Source: an uncultured Gemmiger sp. (GTDB taxonomy: Bacteria > Bacillota > Clostridia > Oscillospirales > Ruminococcaceae). From it: a stretch of 37,918 nt of DNA. Position numbers and translations under genes: made by a program. Under the pieces are notes generated by a model. The model had not been told where the DNA came from. It saw only the letters and a list, made by a program, of their open reading frames with translations, and made no database searches. The stretch lies in NCBI GenBank assembly GCA_944388125.1, contig CALXHO010000018.1:1-37918 (forward strand), written 5' to 3'. Of the stretch, positions 9,255 through 15,433 are shown one piece after another. Numbering within the stretch: position 1 is the stretch's first letter; each line of letters starts with the position of its first letter.

Positions 9255-9407
9255 ACTACCGTGTATTTTAAGATGCGGGTGCTGTACACTTTTGGCAGTG
9301 AGGCTTCCCGCACAGAGATGCCCACCCCGCCGCCTGCCGCGGAGGGAGCCGGGGCAAAATAGAGTCAGGCACAGGGGCACGCCGCCCCCGTGTATCGGAG
9401 GATCACA

Positions 9408-10211
9408 ATGGACAAAAACAACCGTGAACATCGCGCACCCCGGGAGGAACGCAACGGACACGACGGAATGGACACCCTGATCTACGGCAAGAATCCCGTA
9501 GCCGAGCTGCTGAAGAGCGGCCGGCCGGTGGATACCGTCTGGCTGGCGGATTCCATGCCGGAGGCCACGGTGGGATATTACAATGCCCTGGCCCGCCAGG
9601 CGGGCGCCGTGACCAAGCGGGTGCCGTCGGGCAAGCTGCGCCAGATGTGCGGCGGGGCCGAGCACCAGGGTGTGGCTGCCCGCGCGGCCGAGATCGAGTA
9701 TGCCTCGCTGGAAGATCTGCTCCAGGCGGCCCGCCAGAAGGACGAGCCGCCGTTTCTGGTGCTGTGTGACGGCATCGAGGACCCCCACAACCTGGGGGCC
9801 ATCATCCGGTCGGCCCTGCTGTGCGGCGCCCACGGGGTGGTCATTCCCCGCCGGGGCGGCGTGGGGGTCAGCGGCACCGTCATGAAAGCCAGCGCCGGGG
9901 CGGCAGCGCGCCTGCCCGTGGCCCGGGTGCCCAACCTGGCCCAGGCGGTGCGCACCCTCAAGGAAAACAATGTCTTTGTCTACTGCGCCGATATGGGCGG
10001 CGAACCGCTGGAGCGCACCGACCTTTCGGGGGCGGTGGCCCTGGTCATGGGCAGCGAGGGCAGCGGCGTCAGCGCGCTGGTGCGCAAGCTGTGCGACGGC
10101 GTCGTCAGCCTGGACATGGCCGCCCGCAGCACCGGAGTGGACAGCTACAACGTCTCGGTGGCGGCCGGCATCCTGATGTACAACATCATGGGCCGCAGAC
10201 GCCAAGGGTGA
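9408..10211 (+). CDS. rlmB: 23S rRNA (guanosine-2'-O-)-methyltransferase, RlmB/TrmH (SpoU) family
   Basis: A 267-residue SPOUT methyltransferase. Residues 22-100 form the RNA-binding substrate domain (LIYGKNPVAELLKSG). The catalytic knot carries motif 1 NLGAIIRSA (128-136, with Arg134), motif 2 GSEGSG (215-220) and motif 3 SYNVSVAAG (246-254). The family methylates 2'-OH groups of rRNA or tRNA; RlmB targets G2251 of 23S rRNA, though TrmH paralogues look similar. The ATG at 9408 follows GGAGG with 6-nt spacing; an upstream GTG at 9390 has no such site. The next gene starts 43 nt downstream without a clear promoter. Confidence 0.9.
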   Translation: MDKNNREHRAPREERNGHDGMDTLIYGKNPVAELLKSGRPVDTVWLADSMPEATVGYYNALARQAGAVTKRVPSGKLRQMCGGAEHQGVAARAAEIEYASLEDLLQAARQKDEPPFLVLCDGIEDPHNLGAIIRSALLCGAHGVVIPRRGGVGVSGTVMKASAGAAARLPVARVPNLAQAVRTLKENNVFVYCADMGGEPLERTDLSGAVALVMGSEGSGVSALVRKLCDGVVSLDMAARSTGVDSYNVSVAAGILMYNIMGRRRQG

Positions 10212-10254
10212 GACACAACCGGATGGTTTAGAGTAAGAGGGAGAGAAACACACC

Positions 10255-13200
10255 ATGCCAAGCAAGCGGACGAATGATTCGGTCGAGCGGATTTTGCAGG
10301 AGCTCAACCAGCAGCAGGAGGCCAAGGGGATCCGTGACGGCGTTACCGACCGCAACGTGGACGAGATCCTGCGCAGCATCCCCCGTGCCGGTGTGCATCC
10401 TGACGACGGGACCGTGCAGCTTGGGCCCATTCCCCAGAACGAAATGCCGAAGGTGGAGGTCAGCGCCGATGTGGCGGACCCCGAATCCCGGTTTTCCACC
10501 CAGGCCATCGACGCCCTGCTGGCCGATCTGCCCATTTTCCGCAGCGAGGAGGCTGTGCGCCATCCCTCCTCGGCCGTGACGGCCAAGGCTCCCGCGAAAC
10601 AGCAGACCCCGGCCGCCCGGCCCGCGGCAGCAGCCCGCCCGGCCCGGCAGGAGGCTCCCGCCCGTCAGGCACAGCCTGCACAGGACCGGAGCGCTGCCGC
10701 CCCGGCACCTGCCCGCCGCCAGCCGGAGACCCTGCAGGCGCCGGACCCCCGGCCTGCTCCGGAGCCTGCCCCCAAAGGCGAGGATGGCCAAAACACCATG
10801 GGGGACACCACCCGCACCGGCATCATCAAGAATTTCCTGCGCCAGATGGGCGGCGAGGAGGGCGACCAGAGCGCCGACGAACTGTCCCAGCGCAAAAATC
10901 AGTTCCAGCGCTTCTTTGAGGAGAGCGTGGCCGTCGTGCCCGACGCCAAGGGCAAGCTGCCGCCGGAGAAGAAGCGGGGCAAAAAGCGGGGATTTTTCAG
11001 CCGCGTGGAGGACACGGGGGAAATCACCGATGAGTTTGTGCCCATCAACGTCTCCATCGTAGGCCATGGCAATGAGGCTGCCCAGCCTGCCGCCGGGCCG
11101 GAGGAGGAGACCCCGCCCCGCCATGAGCCGTCCCGCAAGAAGAAGGGATTTTTCGGCCTGTTCGGCGGCCGGAACGAGGAAGAGGAGGCCCCCCCGGAGG
11201 ATGAGGAGGAACTCTTTGTCCCCGAGGCGGAGGCCCCTGTGCCCCAGCCGGTCCCGGAGGAGCAACCCGCCGTGAGCGCCCCTGCGCCTGCGCCGGAACC
11301 CGAACCCCAGCCCGAACCGGAACCGCAGAAGTACGTTTACCGTTCCAAATATGCAGGGACCCGGCGGGTGCACGGTTCCTTCACCGACACGCTGTCCTCC
11401 CTGGGGCTGTACCATGTCGATGCTTCCCGCATCCGTGCCCAGGCGGAACAGTCCGCCGAACCGCAGTCTCAGCCGGTCAAGCCGGTACAGCCGGTGCCGG
11501 TGGCGCAGCCTGTGTTTGAGGAGGAGGCGGGGGACACCGTGGAGCGCCCCGCCATCCGTCAGGAGGAAGCGCCCCGGAAAAAGCGGGATACCGTAGAGTT
11601 CACCCCCGGCCAGAAACCCCATCAGCCGCCTGCGGCCGAAAGCCAGACCCAGACTTTCCATGGGTCGGAGCCGGTGGGAGAGCCGGTCATGACCCGGGCG
11701 GACACCCTTTCCATGAGCATCCCCGTGAACACATCCGAACCGGAGGAGCGGGAGGATACCCAGAACTTCCTCAGGTCGATGGAACCGGCAGCGGCGGGCC
11801 GTCCGGCCTGTCAGGCAAAGGCTCCTGCCCCGGCACCGCGCCGCAAGGCACCGGAGCCCGCGCCGTCCCCGGTTCAGGAGGCAGAGCAGGAGCCCGCACC
11901 GGAACACACCATGACCGGGCAGGTCCGGCTGGATATTCCGGCACAGGAGCCCCGTACGGAGCCTGCGCCCGAACACACCATGACGGGCCAGGTGCGCCTG
12001 GATGCGTCCCAGCCGTCCGGCGGCACCCAGGATTTCGACCTGGACCTGGAGCTGGGCCCCCAGGTGGAGGAAAAGCCCAACACTGAGCAGTTTGTGCGCG
12101 GCATTGCCCAGACGCTCAACGCCGGGCTGGATACTCCCGGGGAGGGAGAAACCGCCGACCGCTTTGCCGAGGCAGCGGCCCGCCTGACGGCCCGGGAGCC
12201 CGACGATGAGGAGGAAGCGCCCCGGAAAAAGCGGGGCCGCATGCGGTTTGGCGGCAGCCCCGACGACGAGCGGGATGCCCCCGAGGCCGACGGGCCCTTT
12301 GCTGCGGCGGAACACCGCCACAAGATCGACTACGAGACCGCCGAGGACGCCCCCAAGGTGCGGCAGGAACTGGACAAGCAGAACCTGATCGCCACCATCA
12401 CCGTCATTGTGTCGGGGGTGGCCGCCCTGGTCATGCTCTACCTGGGCACCGCCGCCGTGGGCGGACTGCCCCTGCCCGGGGCCCTCAATACCGATGTGTC
12501 CGCCGCCCCGCTGCTGGTGGTCATGCTGGTGCTGCTGCTGGTGACCTGCGTCCTCAACTGGAAAACGCTGCTGGACGGATTTGTGGGTCTGGTGCGGTCT
12601 CCCTCGCCGGACACCATGCCGTCGCTGGCGGCGGCCGGCGCCCTGATCCAGCTGCTGGTCTTTCTCATCCAGCCGGAGTGGTACAATGTCTCCAAGTTCT
12701 GCCTGATGGCGGGCCCGGCGGCATTGCTGCTCTGCTTCAACGGCGTGGGCAAGATGCTCAACGCCCGCACCGTCCGCGCCAACTTTGACCTGGTCAGCGC
12801 GGGGGTGGACCACGCGGTGGCCTACCGCCTGCGGGATGTGGGCGTGCTGCGCACCGTCACCCGCGGCCTGGGCGAGACAAAACCCTGCCTGCTGGTCAGC
12901 CGTCCCACCGTTCTGCTCAAGAACTTCCTGGCCGGCAGCGATGCACACCGCACCTCGGACAAGAGCCAGCAGCAGTTCAGCTGGATCCTGGGGGCCTGCG
13001 GCCTCATCAGCCTGATCTTCACCCTGCTCTACCGCGGGGATGCCGGCATGGCCTTCTCCGCCATGGCGGCGGTGTTCTGCCTGGGCGCGCCCCTGGCCGG
13101 AACCCTCATCTCCGCCCTGCCCGCCCAGCTCATGCAGCGCAGCGCTGCACGGGTGGGCGCCGTCATCCCCGGCTGGAAAGACATCCGCCAGCTGGGCCGC

Positions 13201-14049
13201 ACCAATATCATCCAGATCACAGCCCGGGACCTCTTCCCGTCGGGCTGCGTCACGCTGGCGGGCATCCGTCCCATCGGCAAGGAACGCATCGACCTTGCCA
13301 TCCCCATTGCCGCCTCGGTCCTGGCGGAGGGCAGCACCACCCTGCGGGATGTCTTTCTGGGCATGATCGGCAACGACCGCAAGCTGCTGGTCAAGGTGGA
13401 TGATCTCAAGACTGTCTACGGCAAGGGCTACGTGGCATGGGTCAACGGCAGCCGGGTGCTGGTGGGCAACCGTTCCCTTATGGAGGAGTACGAGATCCAT
13501 GTGCCCAGCATGGAGTTTGAGCGCCGTCACTCGGTCAACCAGCGTCGGGTCATCTATCTGGCCGTGTCCGGCAACCTGACCGCCATGTTCCAGGTCAGCT
13601 ATCAGCGCGACCCCGATACCGCCGCCGTGCTGGAAAGCCTGCGCCGCCGGGGCATGTCCATCATTGTGGACTGCGACGACTTCAACTGTGACGTCAACCT
13701 GGTGGAGACGGTCTACGGCCTGCCGGGAGATTCGGTCAAGGTGCTCAACGCCGAGGAGCGGGAGGCCCTGGCCCCCGCCACCGCCTGGCTGCCCGAGAGC
13801 GAGGGCAACATGCTGCATCTGGGCAGTTTTGCCAGCTTTGTGGGCGGTCTGGAAGCCGCCGCCGGTGCTGCCGAGAGCGAACATCATGCCAGTGTGGCGC
13901 TGGCTGCGTCGGTGCTTCTGAGCTGTGTGCTGGCGCTCTTCATGTCGCTGGCGGGGGGCATTGTCTCGCTGCCGCTGCCGGCCATGGTGCTGTATCAGGC
14001 AGCCTGGGCGGTGCTGACCATGGTGTTCCCCATGATCCAGCGCTACTGA
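10255..14049 (+). CDS. degenerate P-type ATPase-like membrane protein with long disordered N-terminus
   Basis: A 1264-residue protein with no family name I recognise. Residues 1 to about 700 are Pro/Glu/Ala/Arg-rich and look disordered. They carry a 23-residue tandem repeat, two basic-aromatic KK(R/K)GFF patches (243-248, 295-300) and six T-x-x-F motifs. Residues 711-1264 follow the P1B-type ATPase plan: hydrophobic helices near 711-731, 752-768, 790-805, 815-828, 908-926 and 929-957. A P-domain-like start follows at 985-1001, where canonical DKTGTLT is replaced by D(992)LFPSG. An N-domain-like GKGYVAWVNGSRVLVGN ends near 1072. DPDTAAVLESLRRRGM resembles the segment before TGDN, which here reads DCDD (1139-1142). 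GDGxND is absent, and two C-terminal helices end the protein. ATP-driven transport is therefore unlikely; a scaffold or sensor role is inferred. It starts 43 nt after rlmB, behind a GGGAG site. Confidence 0.75.
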   Translation: MPSKRTNDSVERILQELNQQQEAKGIRDGVTDRNVDEILRSIPRAGVHPDDGTVQLGPIPQNEMPKVEVSADVADPESRFSTQAIDALLADLPIFRSEEAVRHPSSAVTAKAPAKQQTPAARPAAAARPARQEAPARQAQPAQDRSAAAPAPARRQPETLQAPDPRPAPEPAPKGEDGQNTMGDTTRTGIIKNFLRQMGGEEGDQSADELSQRKNQFQRFFEESVAVVPDAKGKLPPEKKRGKKRGFFSRVEDTGEITDEFVPINVSIVGHGNEAAQPAAGPEEETPPRHEPSRKKKGFFGLFGGRNEEEEAPPEDEEELFVPEAEAPVPQPVPEEQPAVSAPAPAPEPEPQPEPEPQKYVYRSKYAGTRRVHGSFTDTLSSLGLYHVDASRIRAQAEQSAEPQSQPVKPVQPVPVAQPVFEEEAGDTVERPAIRQEEAPRKKRDTVEFTPGQKPHQPPAAESQTQTFHGSEPVGEPVMTRADTLSMSIPVNTSEPEEREDTQNFLRSMEPAAAGRPACQAKAPAPAPRRKAPEPAPSPVQEAEQEPAPEHTMTGQVRLDIPAQEPRTEPAPEHTMTGQVRLDASQPSGGTQDFDLDLELGPQVEEKPNTEQFVRGIAQTLNAGLDTPGEGETADRFAEAAARLTAREPDDEEEAPRKKRGRMRFGGSPDDERDAPEADGPFAAAEHRHKIDYETAEDAPKVRQELDKQNLIATITVIVSGVAALVMLYLGTAAVGGLPLPGALNTDVSAAPLLVVMLVLLLVTCVLNWKTLLDGFVGLVRSPSPDTMPSLAAAGALIQLLVFLIQPEWYNVSKFCLMAGPAALLLCFNGVGKMLNARTVRANFDLVSAGVDHAVAYRLRDVGVLRTVTRGLGETKPCLLVSRPTVLLKNFLAGSDAHRTSDKSQQQFSWILGACGLISLIFTLLYRGDAGMAFSAMAAVFCLGAPLAGTLISALPAQLMQRSAARVGAVIPGWKDIRQLGRTNIIQITARDLFPSGCVTLAGIRPIGKERIDLAIPIAASVLAEGSTTLRDVFLGMIGNDRKLLVKVDDLKTVYGKGYVAWVNGSRVLVGNRSLMEEYEIHVPSMEFERRHSVNQRRVIYLAVSGNLTAMFQVSYQRDPDTAAVLESLRRRGMSIIVDCDDFNCDVNLVETVYGLPGDSVKVLNAEEREALAPATAWLPESEGNMLHLGSFASFVGGLEAAAGAAESEHHASVALAASVLLSCVLALFMSLAGGIVSLPLPAMVLYQAAWAVLTMVFPMIQRY
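11890..12003 (+). repeat. in-frame tandem repeat inside the pseudo-P-type ATPase gene
   Basis: Residues 546-560 and 569-583 both read EPAPEHTMTGQVRLD, giving a 23-residue period. The DNA copies differ at synonymous positions, so the duplication is not recent or has been kept by protein-level selection. Confidence 0.85.
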
Positions 14050-14107: not shown

Positions 14108-14521
14108 GTGTACCGTGTCAAAGACAGCCAGATGAGTGTTTACGATTATATCCCGCCTTTCCACGGGGAACTGTCCCACAAGAACCGCTGGGTCCGCCTG
14201 GCGGCGGCGATGGACTGGGATGCCTTTGAGCATGAGTACAGCGCGCTGTTTGCCCGGGGCGGCAAGGTGGCCATCCCCGCGCGGGTGGCGCTGGGCAGCC
14301 TCATCATCCGGGAAGCCTGCGGTCTCTCCGACCGGGAGACGGTGGCCCTGGTACGGGAAAGTCCCTACCTGCAATATTTTCTGGGGCTCAAGGCCTTTGT
14401 GGACGAAGCCCCCTTTTCGGCCCGCAGCATGGAGATGTTCCGGCGCCGGATCCCCCGCGCCATCGTGCGCGACGCCGTGCGGCTTCTGCGCGGCTTTGAA
14501 CGCGAGGATCGCCCGGACTGA
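14108..14521 (+). CDS. transposase N-terminal domain (DUF772) protein, stand-alone
   Basis: A 137-residue protein matching only the N-terminal, DNA-binding DUF772 part of IS5/IS1182-type transposases. Visible signatures are NRWVRLAAAMDWDAFEHEY, IPARVALGSLIIREACGLSDRETV and ESPYLQYFLGLKAF, ending with FRRRI. The DDE catalytic core is missing and the frame stops soon after the domain, so it cannot transpose. It has a GTG start 10 nt after GGAGGG, a possible TACAAT -10 box at 14081-14086, and codon usage like its neighbours. No inverted repeats or target duplications are visible. It is either an IS remnant or a domesticated DNA-binding protein. Confidence 0.75.
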   Translation: MYRVKDSQMSVYDYIPPFHGELSHKNRWVRLAAAMDWDAFEHEYSALFARGGKVAIPARVALGSLIIREACGLSDRETVALVRESPYLQYFLGLKAFVDEAPFSARSMEMFRRRIPRAIVRDAVRLLRGFEREDRPD

Positions 14522-14566
14522 CGCAGTCCCGGCACCGAAACTATTCTGATGACATAGAGGGTGTAT

Positions 14567-15433
14567 ATGGAAATTCTTTTGCATTCTGTCATCCACGCGC
14601 TGGAGGACAGCGTGCGGATGCTGCCGTTTTTGTATCTTGCCTACCTGCTGATCGAGTGGCTGGAACGCCACCACGGTCAGCGCATCGAGGACGCTCTGGC
14701 GGGTGGCGGCCGGTGGGGCTTTGCCCCCGGCGCCCTGCTGGGCTGCGTGCCCCAGTGCGGATTTTCCGCCGTGGCCTCCAACCTGTATGCCAGCCGGGTC
14801 ATCACTCCCGGCACGCTGCTGGCGGTGTTTCTTGCCACCTCCGACGAGGCCATTCCCCTGCTGGCGGCGGAACCCGGCCGTTGGCCCGCCCTGCTGGCCC
14901 TGCTGGTGCTGAAAGTGCTGTTTGCCATGGTGGCCGGCTTTGTGCTGGATGTGCCTTTGCGCCGCTTTTTGCCCAAGTCGCTGTACGGCGGCTACTCGGG
15001 CAGCTCGGAGGAGATCGACTGCCACGAGGAACACGAGCCCCACAGCGGCATCTGGCTGGCCGCCCTGCGCCACACGCTGGAGATTTTTGCCTTTATCCTG
15101 ATCTTCAGCTTTGCCATCGGCCTGATCTTTGAGCTGGTAGGCGAGGATACCGTGGCCGCCGCCTTCACCGGGCTGGGCGTCTTCCAGCCCATGGTGGCTT
15201 CTCTGTTGGGGCTGGTACCCAACTGTGCCGCCAGCGTGCTGCTGACCCAGCTGTATGTGGAGGGGGTCATCTCCTTCGGCAGCCTGTTCGGCGGCCTGTG
15301 CGCCGGTGCGGGCATCGGCCTGGCCGTGCTGTGGCGGGTCAACCGCAGCGTCAAACAGAATCTCTTCATGACGGGCCTTTTGTGGGCTGTGGGCGCGGTG
15401 TGCGGCATCGTGCTGCAGTTTCTGCCCCTGTGA
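14567..15433 (+). CDS. putative heavy-metal/manganese exporter (ArsP_2, DUF2899-like permease)
   Basis: A 288-residue membrane protein with about eight to ten hydrophobic segments in two related halves. Each half carries the family motif: GCVPQCGFSAVASNLYASR (Cys60, Cys64) and GLVPNCAASVLLTQLY (Cys220). The helix after the first motif contains ATSDEAIP. A cytosolic or external loop at 146-160 is rich in Asp, Glu, His and Cys (EEIDCHEEHEPH), well suited to binding metal. The family is annotated as a putative heavy-metal or manganese transporter; the direction and ion are unproven. The ATG at 14567 has AGAGG at 14556-14560; the in-frame GTG at 14561 is too close to it. It lies 45 nt after the DUF772 gene and 24 nt before araD. 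Confidence 0.82.
   Translation: MEILLHSVIHALEDSVRMLPFLYLAYLLIEWLERHHGQRIEDALAGGGRWGFAPGALLGCVPQCGFSAVASNLYASRVITPGTLLAVFLATSDEAIPLLAAEPGRWPALLALLVLKVLFAMVAGFVLDVPLRRFLPKSLYGGYSGSSEEIDCHEEHEPHSGIWLAALRHTLEIFAFILIFSFAIGLIFELVGEDTVAAAFTGLGVFQPMVASLLGLVPNCAASVLLTQLYVEGVISFGSLFGGLCAGAGIGLAVLWRVNRSVKQNLFMTGLLWAVGAVCGIVLQFLPL

Follow-up and report, generated by a model that had tools for sequence, protein, structure and literature searches.

A conserved gene beside rlmB appears to encode a P1B-ATPase descendant without motor motifs

What becomes of a metal pump that keeps its membrane shell and loses its motor is the question raised by one gene of an uncultured Gemmiger sp., located in the 37,918 nucleotides (nt) of contig CALXHO010000018.1 (assembly GCA_944388125.1, positions 1 to 37,918), a stretch called the window in the following. 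A first-pass annotation, made from the letters alone, had read the gene product as a catalytically dead P-type ATPase fused to a long disordered region, and the open frame that it described is indeed intact:

10255 to 14049, + strand: the whole pseudo-P1B-ATPase gene, an ATG frame of 1264 codons encoding 1264 amino acids (aa)

As far as sequences can tell, an ancestor within the order converted a CopA-like pump to a membrane protein that lacks the motor motifs, here called the pseudo-pump, and nearly all sampled descendants retain it, usually in one copy and beside rlmB. The order is presumably the Oscillospirales of the GTDB taxonomy. For the present role of the protein we give an even chance to an anchor with a docking tail, which would make it a membrane scaffold or receptor and not a pump.

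The assignment of the C-terminal ~550 residues to the P1B type is borne out by profile comparisons. When the last 565 residues were compared with 18 Clostridial P1B ATPases by hhalign, a probability of 100 and E=1.9e-39 were obtained over 565 columns. A family profile built from 51 copies, which separates the family from pumps, matched Legionella CopA (3rfu) among PDB sequences with E=3.6e-34, and in that match family positions 11-151 align with CopA 78-218 and positions 201-474 with 334-609. As a single protein, the window copy reached E=5.2e-8 and 32.2 bits against NCBIfam TIGR01525, whose curated cut-off is 346.25, and had no match in Pfam. Among the 51 members, the NCBIfam CopA model matched 37 and TIGR01525 (ATPase-IB) 35, and all Pfam matches were weak (HAD hydrolase in 6, DUF4079 in 1, E1-E2 ATPase in 1). 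A maximum-likelihood tree of 55 sequences sets the family apart from true pumps (support 100), with its point of attachment close to CopA-like proteins; because the family branch is long and the rooting is by midpoint, the exact parent pump is not fixed. Homology and helix order of the P1B type are thus both recovered by the profiles, which indicates that the C-terminal part derives from a CopA-like P1B-type ATPase. Like CopA and the P1B-1 pumps (3rfu, TIGR01525, NF007952), the pseudo-pump has colinear helices, a P-domain start and a full-length N-domain. Unlike them, it is without the CPC triad, DKTGT, TGD, HP and GDGxND, its actuator is ~65 residues shorter, and it carries a long N-terminal tail.

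The loss of the catalytic motifs extends through the family. Motifs were counted in an alignment of 79 copies (49 'far' rows and 30 from the genus), which excludes the window copy (L001), six copies shorter than 600 aa (L016, L036, L044, L045, L060, L074; in L045 an internal stop truncates the frame) and L076, set aside after no tblastn match, although its genome G081 matches the profile. Neither DKTGT nor TGD/SGD nor the HP motif of the N-domain was found at the aligned sites or in the wider stretches round them in any of the 79 copies. An intact CPC-type metal triad in M4 is likewise found in 0/79, L040 alone keeping CP, and none of 85 copies, six of them partial (<600 aa), contains GDGxxD in its last 565 residues. 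That the motifs are gone, as first proposed from the window copy, therefore describes the orthologues as well; with no intact motif in the 79 copies read, a local mutation is ruled out. Chance strings do occur outside the motif sites, such as DKTGS in L039, DKTGT in L086, TGDN in L013 and others. TGE[SP] was found in 3/85 copies, twice in the MA-MB loop and once, in L034, as TGEP at window residue 872, which is possibly a remnant of the actuator motif.

True pumps were read alongside in two control sets of 18 P1B proteins. The first set was picked for DKTGT and GDGxND, so that these two motifs are circular in it, and the motifs not asked for, CPC, TGDN and TGE, were each present in 18/18. In the second set, picked for DKTGT alone, GDGxND and TGE were each found in 18/18, CPC in 12/18 and TGD[NRK] in 9/18, so that even in true pumps neither CPC nor TGDN in its exact form is invariant; taken together, the sets have TGE in 36/36, CPC in 30/36 and TGD[NRK] in 27/36. 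The spacing of the landmarks points to what went with the motifs. Between 19 family members and 36 true P1B pumps, the median M2-M3 interval is 73 versus 138 residues and that from the TGD aspartate to M5 is 73 versus 105, whereas the DKTGT site and TGD lie 145 residues apart in both. Much of the actuator (~65 residues) and the GDGxND block (~32 residues) would accordingly be gone and the N-domain length kept; the shortened actuator is a feature that goes beyond the first-pass annotation. The core can be mapped as follows, all on the + strand:

12394 to 12744, +: helices MA, MB, M1 and M2, by hydropathy, with M2 weakly hydrophobic (family 11-151 on CopA 78-218)
12760 to 12975, +: truncated actuator domain, by M2-M3 interval lengths and hhalign
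12976 to 13119, +: helices M3 and M4, by hydropathy and alignment, with APL (945-947) in place of CPC
13219 to 13245, +: former DKTGT site, TARDLFPSG (989-997), by hmmsearch, hhalign and alignment
13267 to 13644, +: N-domain remnant of full length, with approximate borders; HP lost, second G of GxG and G1071 kept
13420 to 13428, +: GxG (1056-1058), G1058 in 78/79 and G1056 in 54/79
13672 to 13680, +: former TGD site, CDD (1140-1142), D1142 in 78/79
13897 to 14034, +: helices M5 and M6, by hydropathy

Two positions in the first reading have to be shifted. D992 had been taken for the catalytic aspartate site, which the alignment puts at T989 (hmmsearch) or A990 (hhalign), two to three residues earlier, and TGDN had been placed at 1139-1142, where the aligned residues are C1140-D1141-D1142-F1143. 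In the column of the catalytic aspartate, T989 in the window, Asp stands in 14/79 copies, and in the next column in 23/79, with an alignment uncertainty of one residue. The altered forms themselves are conserved across the orthologues: the replacement reads DLFPxG at 992-997 (D in 57/79, L in 58/79) and (T/S/C)xDxN at 1140-1144 (T, S or C in 65/79, N in 61/79). Kept from the pump are D1142, the Asp of TGD, in 78/79, G1071 in 79/79, and P946 of M4 in 67/79.

These kept features invite two readings other than a scaffold. With an N-domain interval of 145 versus 145 residues and with G1058 and G1071 conserved in 78/79 and 79/79, the full-length N-lobe could bind a nucleotide or second messenger and signal via the tail. 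The HP motif, which holds the adenine in P1B pumps, is however absent from all 79 copies, and the glycines may have been conserved just for the sake of folding; on balance we regard such a sensor as unlikely. TMEM94, a P-type-like protein whose ATPase activity was not measurable, is reported in the accessible part of one paper to bind AMPPCP with micromolar affinity all the same (PMC12134183). In the second reading, the helices would have outlived the ATP motor to form a passive channel, a carrier or a transporter of lipids. The hydrophobic segments are retained and the M4 proline is present in 67/79, but with the metal triad of M4 intact in no copy (L040 keeps CP) and with no substrate suggested by the sequence, this appears improbable. 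In a scaffold or receptor, the helix core would be an anchor that holds the full-size N-lobe beneath the membrane.

The family is nearly always found once per genome and is near-universal, not strictly universal, in its order. At a profile threshold of E<=1e-40 it was detected in 228 of 245 order genomes, 179 of 184 good-quality ones and 24 of 26 families; the two remaining families each contributed a single genome, with a completeness of 55% and 77%. Most of these copies were detected by profile, their sequences not being read individually. Of the matching genomes, 227/228 have a single match and one has two. The nearest named relatives in the C-terminal part are Ca. Gemmiger faecavium (92%) and Gemmiger gallinarum (89%), and query residues 683-1264 matched in 96/100 relatives, the weak partial rows including true pumps. 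In a class sample of 291 genomes, 12 same-order genomes gave near full-length matches with E 4.9e-101 or better; the best E in the other 279 was 1.9e-39 or weaker and covered, among the matches listed, only the stretch common with ordinary P1B pumps. A phylum sample of 299 genomes, which overlaps the class sample, gave three full-length matches, all within the order, the kinship of most unmatched genomes not being given, and the sole further match at E<=1e-37 was partial (6.2e-38, G695). Plasmid records contain the family in two places, both in Oscillospiraceae-type organisms. No model naming it was found in Pfam or NCBIfam, and no description of a bacterial family of this kind was found in the literature searched, most subscription papers lying outside that search.

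Retention goes together with selection. Against six genus copies, the ratio of nonsynonymous to synonymous substitution rates (dN/dS) lies between 0.117 and 0.406 for residues 701-1264 and between 0.286 and 0.433 for the tail. Among the rows listed, one frame has an internal TGA (G082) and the others are open. A gene in decay or a sequencing artefact would account for the disappearance of all tested catalytic motifs, but the retention in 228/245 genomes, the dN/dS of 0.43 or lower, the conserved altered residues and the frames open apart from G082 contradict it, and its probability is next to nil, in line with the first-pass view that the gene is not decaying. The role as scaffold, sensor or regulator suggested in that annotation, itself an interpretation, is favoured over decay because of purifying selection, near-universal retention and the tail motifs described below. 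Judged by homology, lost catalytic residues and maintenance under selection, the protein is a pseudoenzyme from a P-type ATPase, and the conserved family, although derived from P1B-ATPases, appears to fall outside their functional definition.

As the pseudo-pump descends from the same family as true metal pumps, it might also act as a regulatory or dominant-negative partner of one in the same cell. A strong P1B match (E 1e-60) is present in 239 of the 245 order genomes, and a gene for a putative heavy-metal exporter, ArsP_2, lies downstream in the genus. The partner role is weakened, however, because, of the six genomes with no P1B match at this threshold, five retain the pseudo-pump (G438, G485, G496, G518, G547), although only G438 and G496 are >90% complete. 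Furthermore, no order-wide neighbour except rlmB is found, the ArsP_2 gene being almost confined to the genus. The comparison covered metal pumps of the P1B type, and we hold a pump partner to be very improbable.

The proposed link to rlmB is confirmed by the loci of the order. In the window, the neighbouring gene is located as follows:

9390 to 10211, + strand: rlmB, SpoU-family rRNA methyltransferase (Pfam SpoU_methylase 2.5e-36, SpoU_sub_bind 1.2e-15)

The pseudo-pump frame starts 43 nt past the rlmB stop, with a purine-rich stretch ahead of its start. A same-strand rlmB precedes the gene at 72 of 76 loci; the remaining four are L036 (contig end), L042 and L077 (~7 kb upstream without rlmB) and L076 (no tblastn match). 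From the rlmB stop to the pseudo-pump start the median is 35 nt in 122 of 135 loci, namely those with a same-strand rlmB and a start within 600 nt, where starts are heuristic and some genomes were entered twice. Because of this short gap, the two genes are likely co-transcribed. Neighbour clustering found no other order-wide neighbour; in a second clustering, the figure of 70/70 for rlmB is circular because only rlmB-containing loci entered it. In Vescimonas fastidiosa, the annotated copy WP_212820792.1 is labelled a hypothetical protein, and rlmB precedes it by 10 nt. This arrangement (72/76 loci, median gap 35 nt) could reflect a direct service to RlmB or the ribosome, such as keeping the methylation of 23S rRNA tethered to the membrane. 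Yet rlmB is widespread beyond this order, whereas the pseudo-pump was not found outside it in the class and phylum samples; L042 and L077 have no rlmB within ~7 kb upstream, and adjacency is no proof of contact. We therefore see only a small chance for such a service, and return to the scaffold or receptor, for which the tail is most relevant.

The tail precedes the core and was called disordered in the first reading; by its composition (rich in P, A and E, no W) we judge it probably so. From the topology of P1B pumps, it would be cytoplasmic. It contains several short motifs, numbered M1 to M4 as tail motifs, separately from the helices:

10255 to 12324, +: low-complexity tail, residues 1-690 (P 12.9%, A 12.5%, E 11.9%, W 0)
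10279 to 10305, +: tail motif M1, copy 1, SVERILQEL (residues 9-17)
10357 to 10380, +: tail motif M1, copy 2, VDEILRSI (residues 35-42), identical at residue 35 in orthologue L087
11914 to 11931, +: tail motif M3, copy 1, TGQVRL (residue 554)
11983 to 12000, +: tail motif M3, copy 2, TGQVRL (residue 577)
12328 to 12360, +: juxtamembrane tail motif M4, DYETAEDAPKV (residue 692)

In 106 distinct tails, drawn from the 122 loci of the gap count, the VDxIL-type tail motif M1 ([VILF][DE]x[IM][LIM]xx[LIVFYA]) occurs within the first 70 residues of 88, versus 0.7 in shuffled tails. Less frequent are tail motif M2 (FFxxSVA-like; 32/106 versus 0.1), M3 (TGx[VI]xL; 40/106 versus 0.2) and M4 (DY..EDAxxV ahead of MA; 43/106 versus 0.1). 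A scan of 3941 open frames of at least 150 aa, from the window and the loci, gave 50 matches, of which 41 share their C-terminus with the family by script; the other nine looked, on inspection by eye, like whole or partial copies of the pseudo-pump gene. A degenerate DNA pattern for tail motif M1 found no site in the window's own genome, as it missed the window copy because R stands where the pattern asks for D/E. A looser pattern gave four sites in 3/20 genomes, all at pseudo-pump copies, and its backward control two sites in the same 20 genomes; the extra site in G038, next to a run of N at which the start of the gene is repeated, was taken as an assembly artefact.

In the scaffold or receptor that we propose, the long tail would extend into the cytoplasm, where the VDxIL-type helix motif and the other short motifs could capture one or more cytosolic partners. 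The protein might in this way bring its partners to the membrane, possibly under the control of a ligand bound to the altered head. This role we infer from homology, motif loss, selection, spread, the tail motif and the neighbouring gene, each of which is itself read from the data. A bolder version, possible but rather doubtful, is that of an order-defining core gene: the pump would have lost its motor before the radiation of the order and become a receptor, whose N-lobe senses a non-ATP ligand and whose VDxIL tail recruits a growth or division machine, with expression tied to ribosome maturation via rlmB.

Several points weigh against a scaffold or receptor. The role and the partners of the tail are predicted from sequence. 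The P-type fold is taken from sequence profiles, and the helices from simple hydropathy with a weak M2. Five of the 184 good-quality order genomes have no match, which makes the family near-universal rather than universal, and independence from true pumps was tested on six genomes only, four of them <90% complete. The adjacency to rlmB may mean shared expression only. Because the tail patterns were written post hoc from the tails themselves and related tails do not count as independent, the shuffles overstate the significance; tail motifs M2 to M4 each occur in only 30-41% of the tails, and a stricter first pattern for M1 matched 54/122.

Two eukaryotic proteins offer a comparison. Human TMEM94 has a P-type-like architecture, its TGES is missing and no ATPase activity was detected, and in the accessible part of their paper the authors argue against its being a P-type ATPase (PMC12134183); it is contested, as another paper, likewise accessible in part, argues for an active Mg pump (PMC13322241). 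The pseudo-pump resembles TMEM94 in the P-type-like architecture and the missing TGES, no ATPase activity having been detected there and its loss being predicted from sequence here. It differs in that TMEM94 is eukaryotic and has ten helices and all three cytoplasmic domains, as far as the portion of the source available tells (PMC12134183). The ATPaseP-guanylate cyclase of Toxoplasma likewise has a P-type ATPase region inside a large signalling membrane protein, but, according to the accessible part of the source, that region is P4-like, keeps a DKTGT-containing motif and is fused to cyclases (PMC6592433). If the scaffold or receptor reading is correct, the pseudo-pump would exemplify, in nature, a transporter that became a scaffold or receptor, P-type ATPases being known as pumps. 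The order includes many gut species, and nearly all of its sampled members retain the shell without the motor motifs; the family is amenable to testing, with one gene, usually in single copy, a fixed neighbour and a defined motif.

Some observations concern the surroundings of the gene. Directly downstream of the pseudo-pump and following one another are:

14108 to 14521, + strand: stand-alone N-terminal transposase domain, DUF772 (Pfam E=1.7e-11)
14561 to 15433, + strand: putative heavy-metal exporter ArsP_2 (Pfam E=1.7e-17)

By tblastn, the DUF772 frame is present in the window and in 21 genus loci (L086-L106, ~60-95% identity), as well as in the distant L171 (49%). It lies a median of 36 nt downstream of the pseudo-pump (22 loci) and looks as if it were a domesticated transposase fragment. 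A frame homologous to ArsP_2 is found downstream in 22 loci, 21 of them in the genus and one outside. A frame for an elongation-factor-G-like GTPase lies downstream in 11 or 12 loci by two clusterings (e.g. L078, L089), 10/12 being outside the genus. In L041, a run of N separates two copies of the pseudo-pump gene start, which is probably a scaffolding artefact. Opposite the pseudo-pump, an open frame of 1219 codons runs from 10228 to 13887 on the - strand; it shows no sign of being a gene, and long shadow frames are common in the window.

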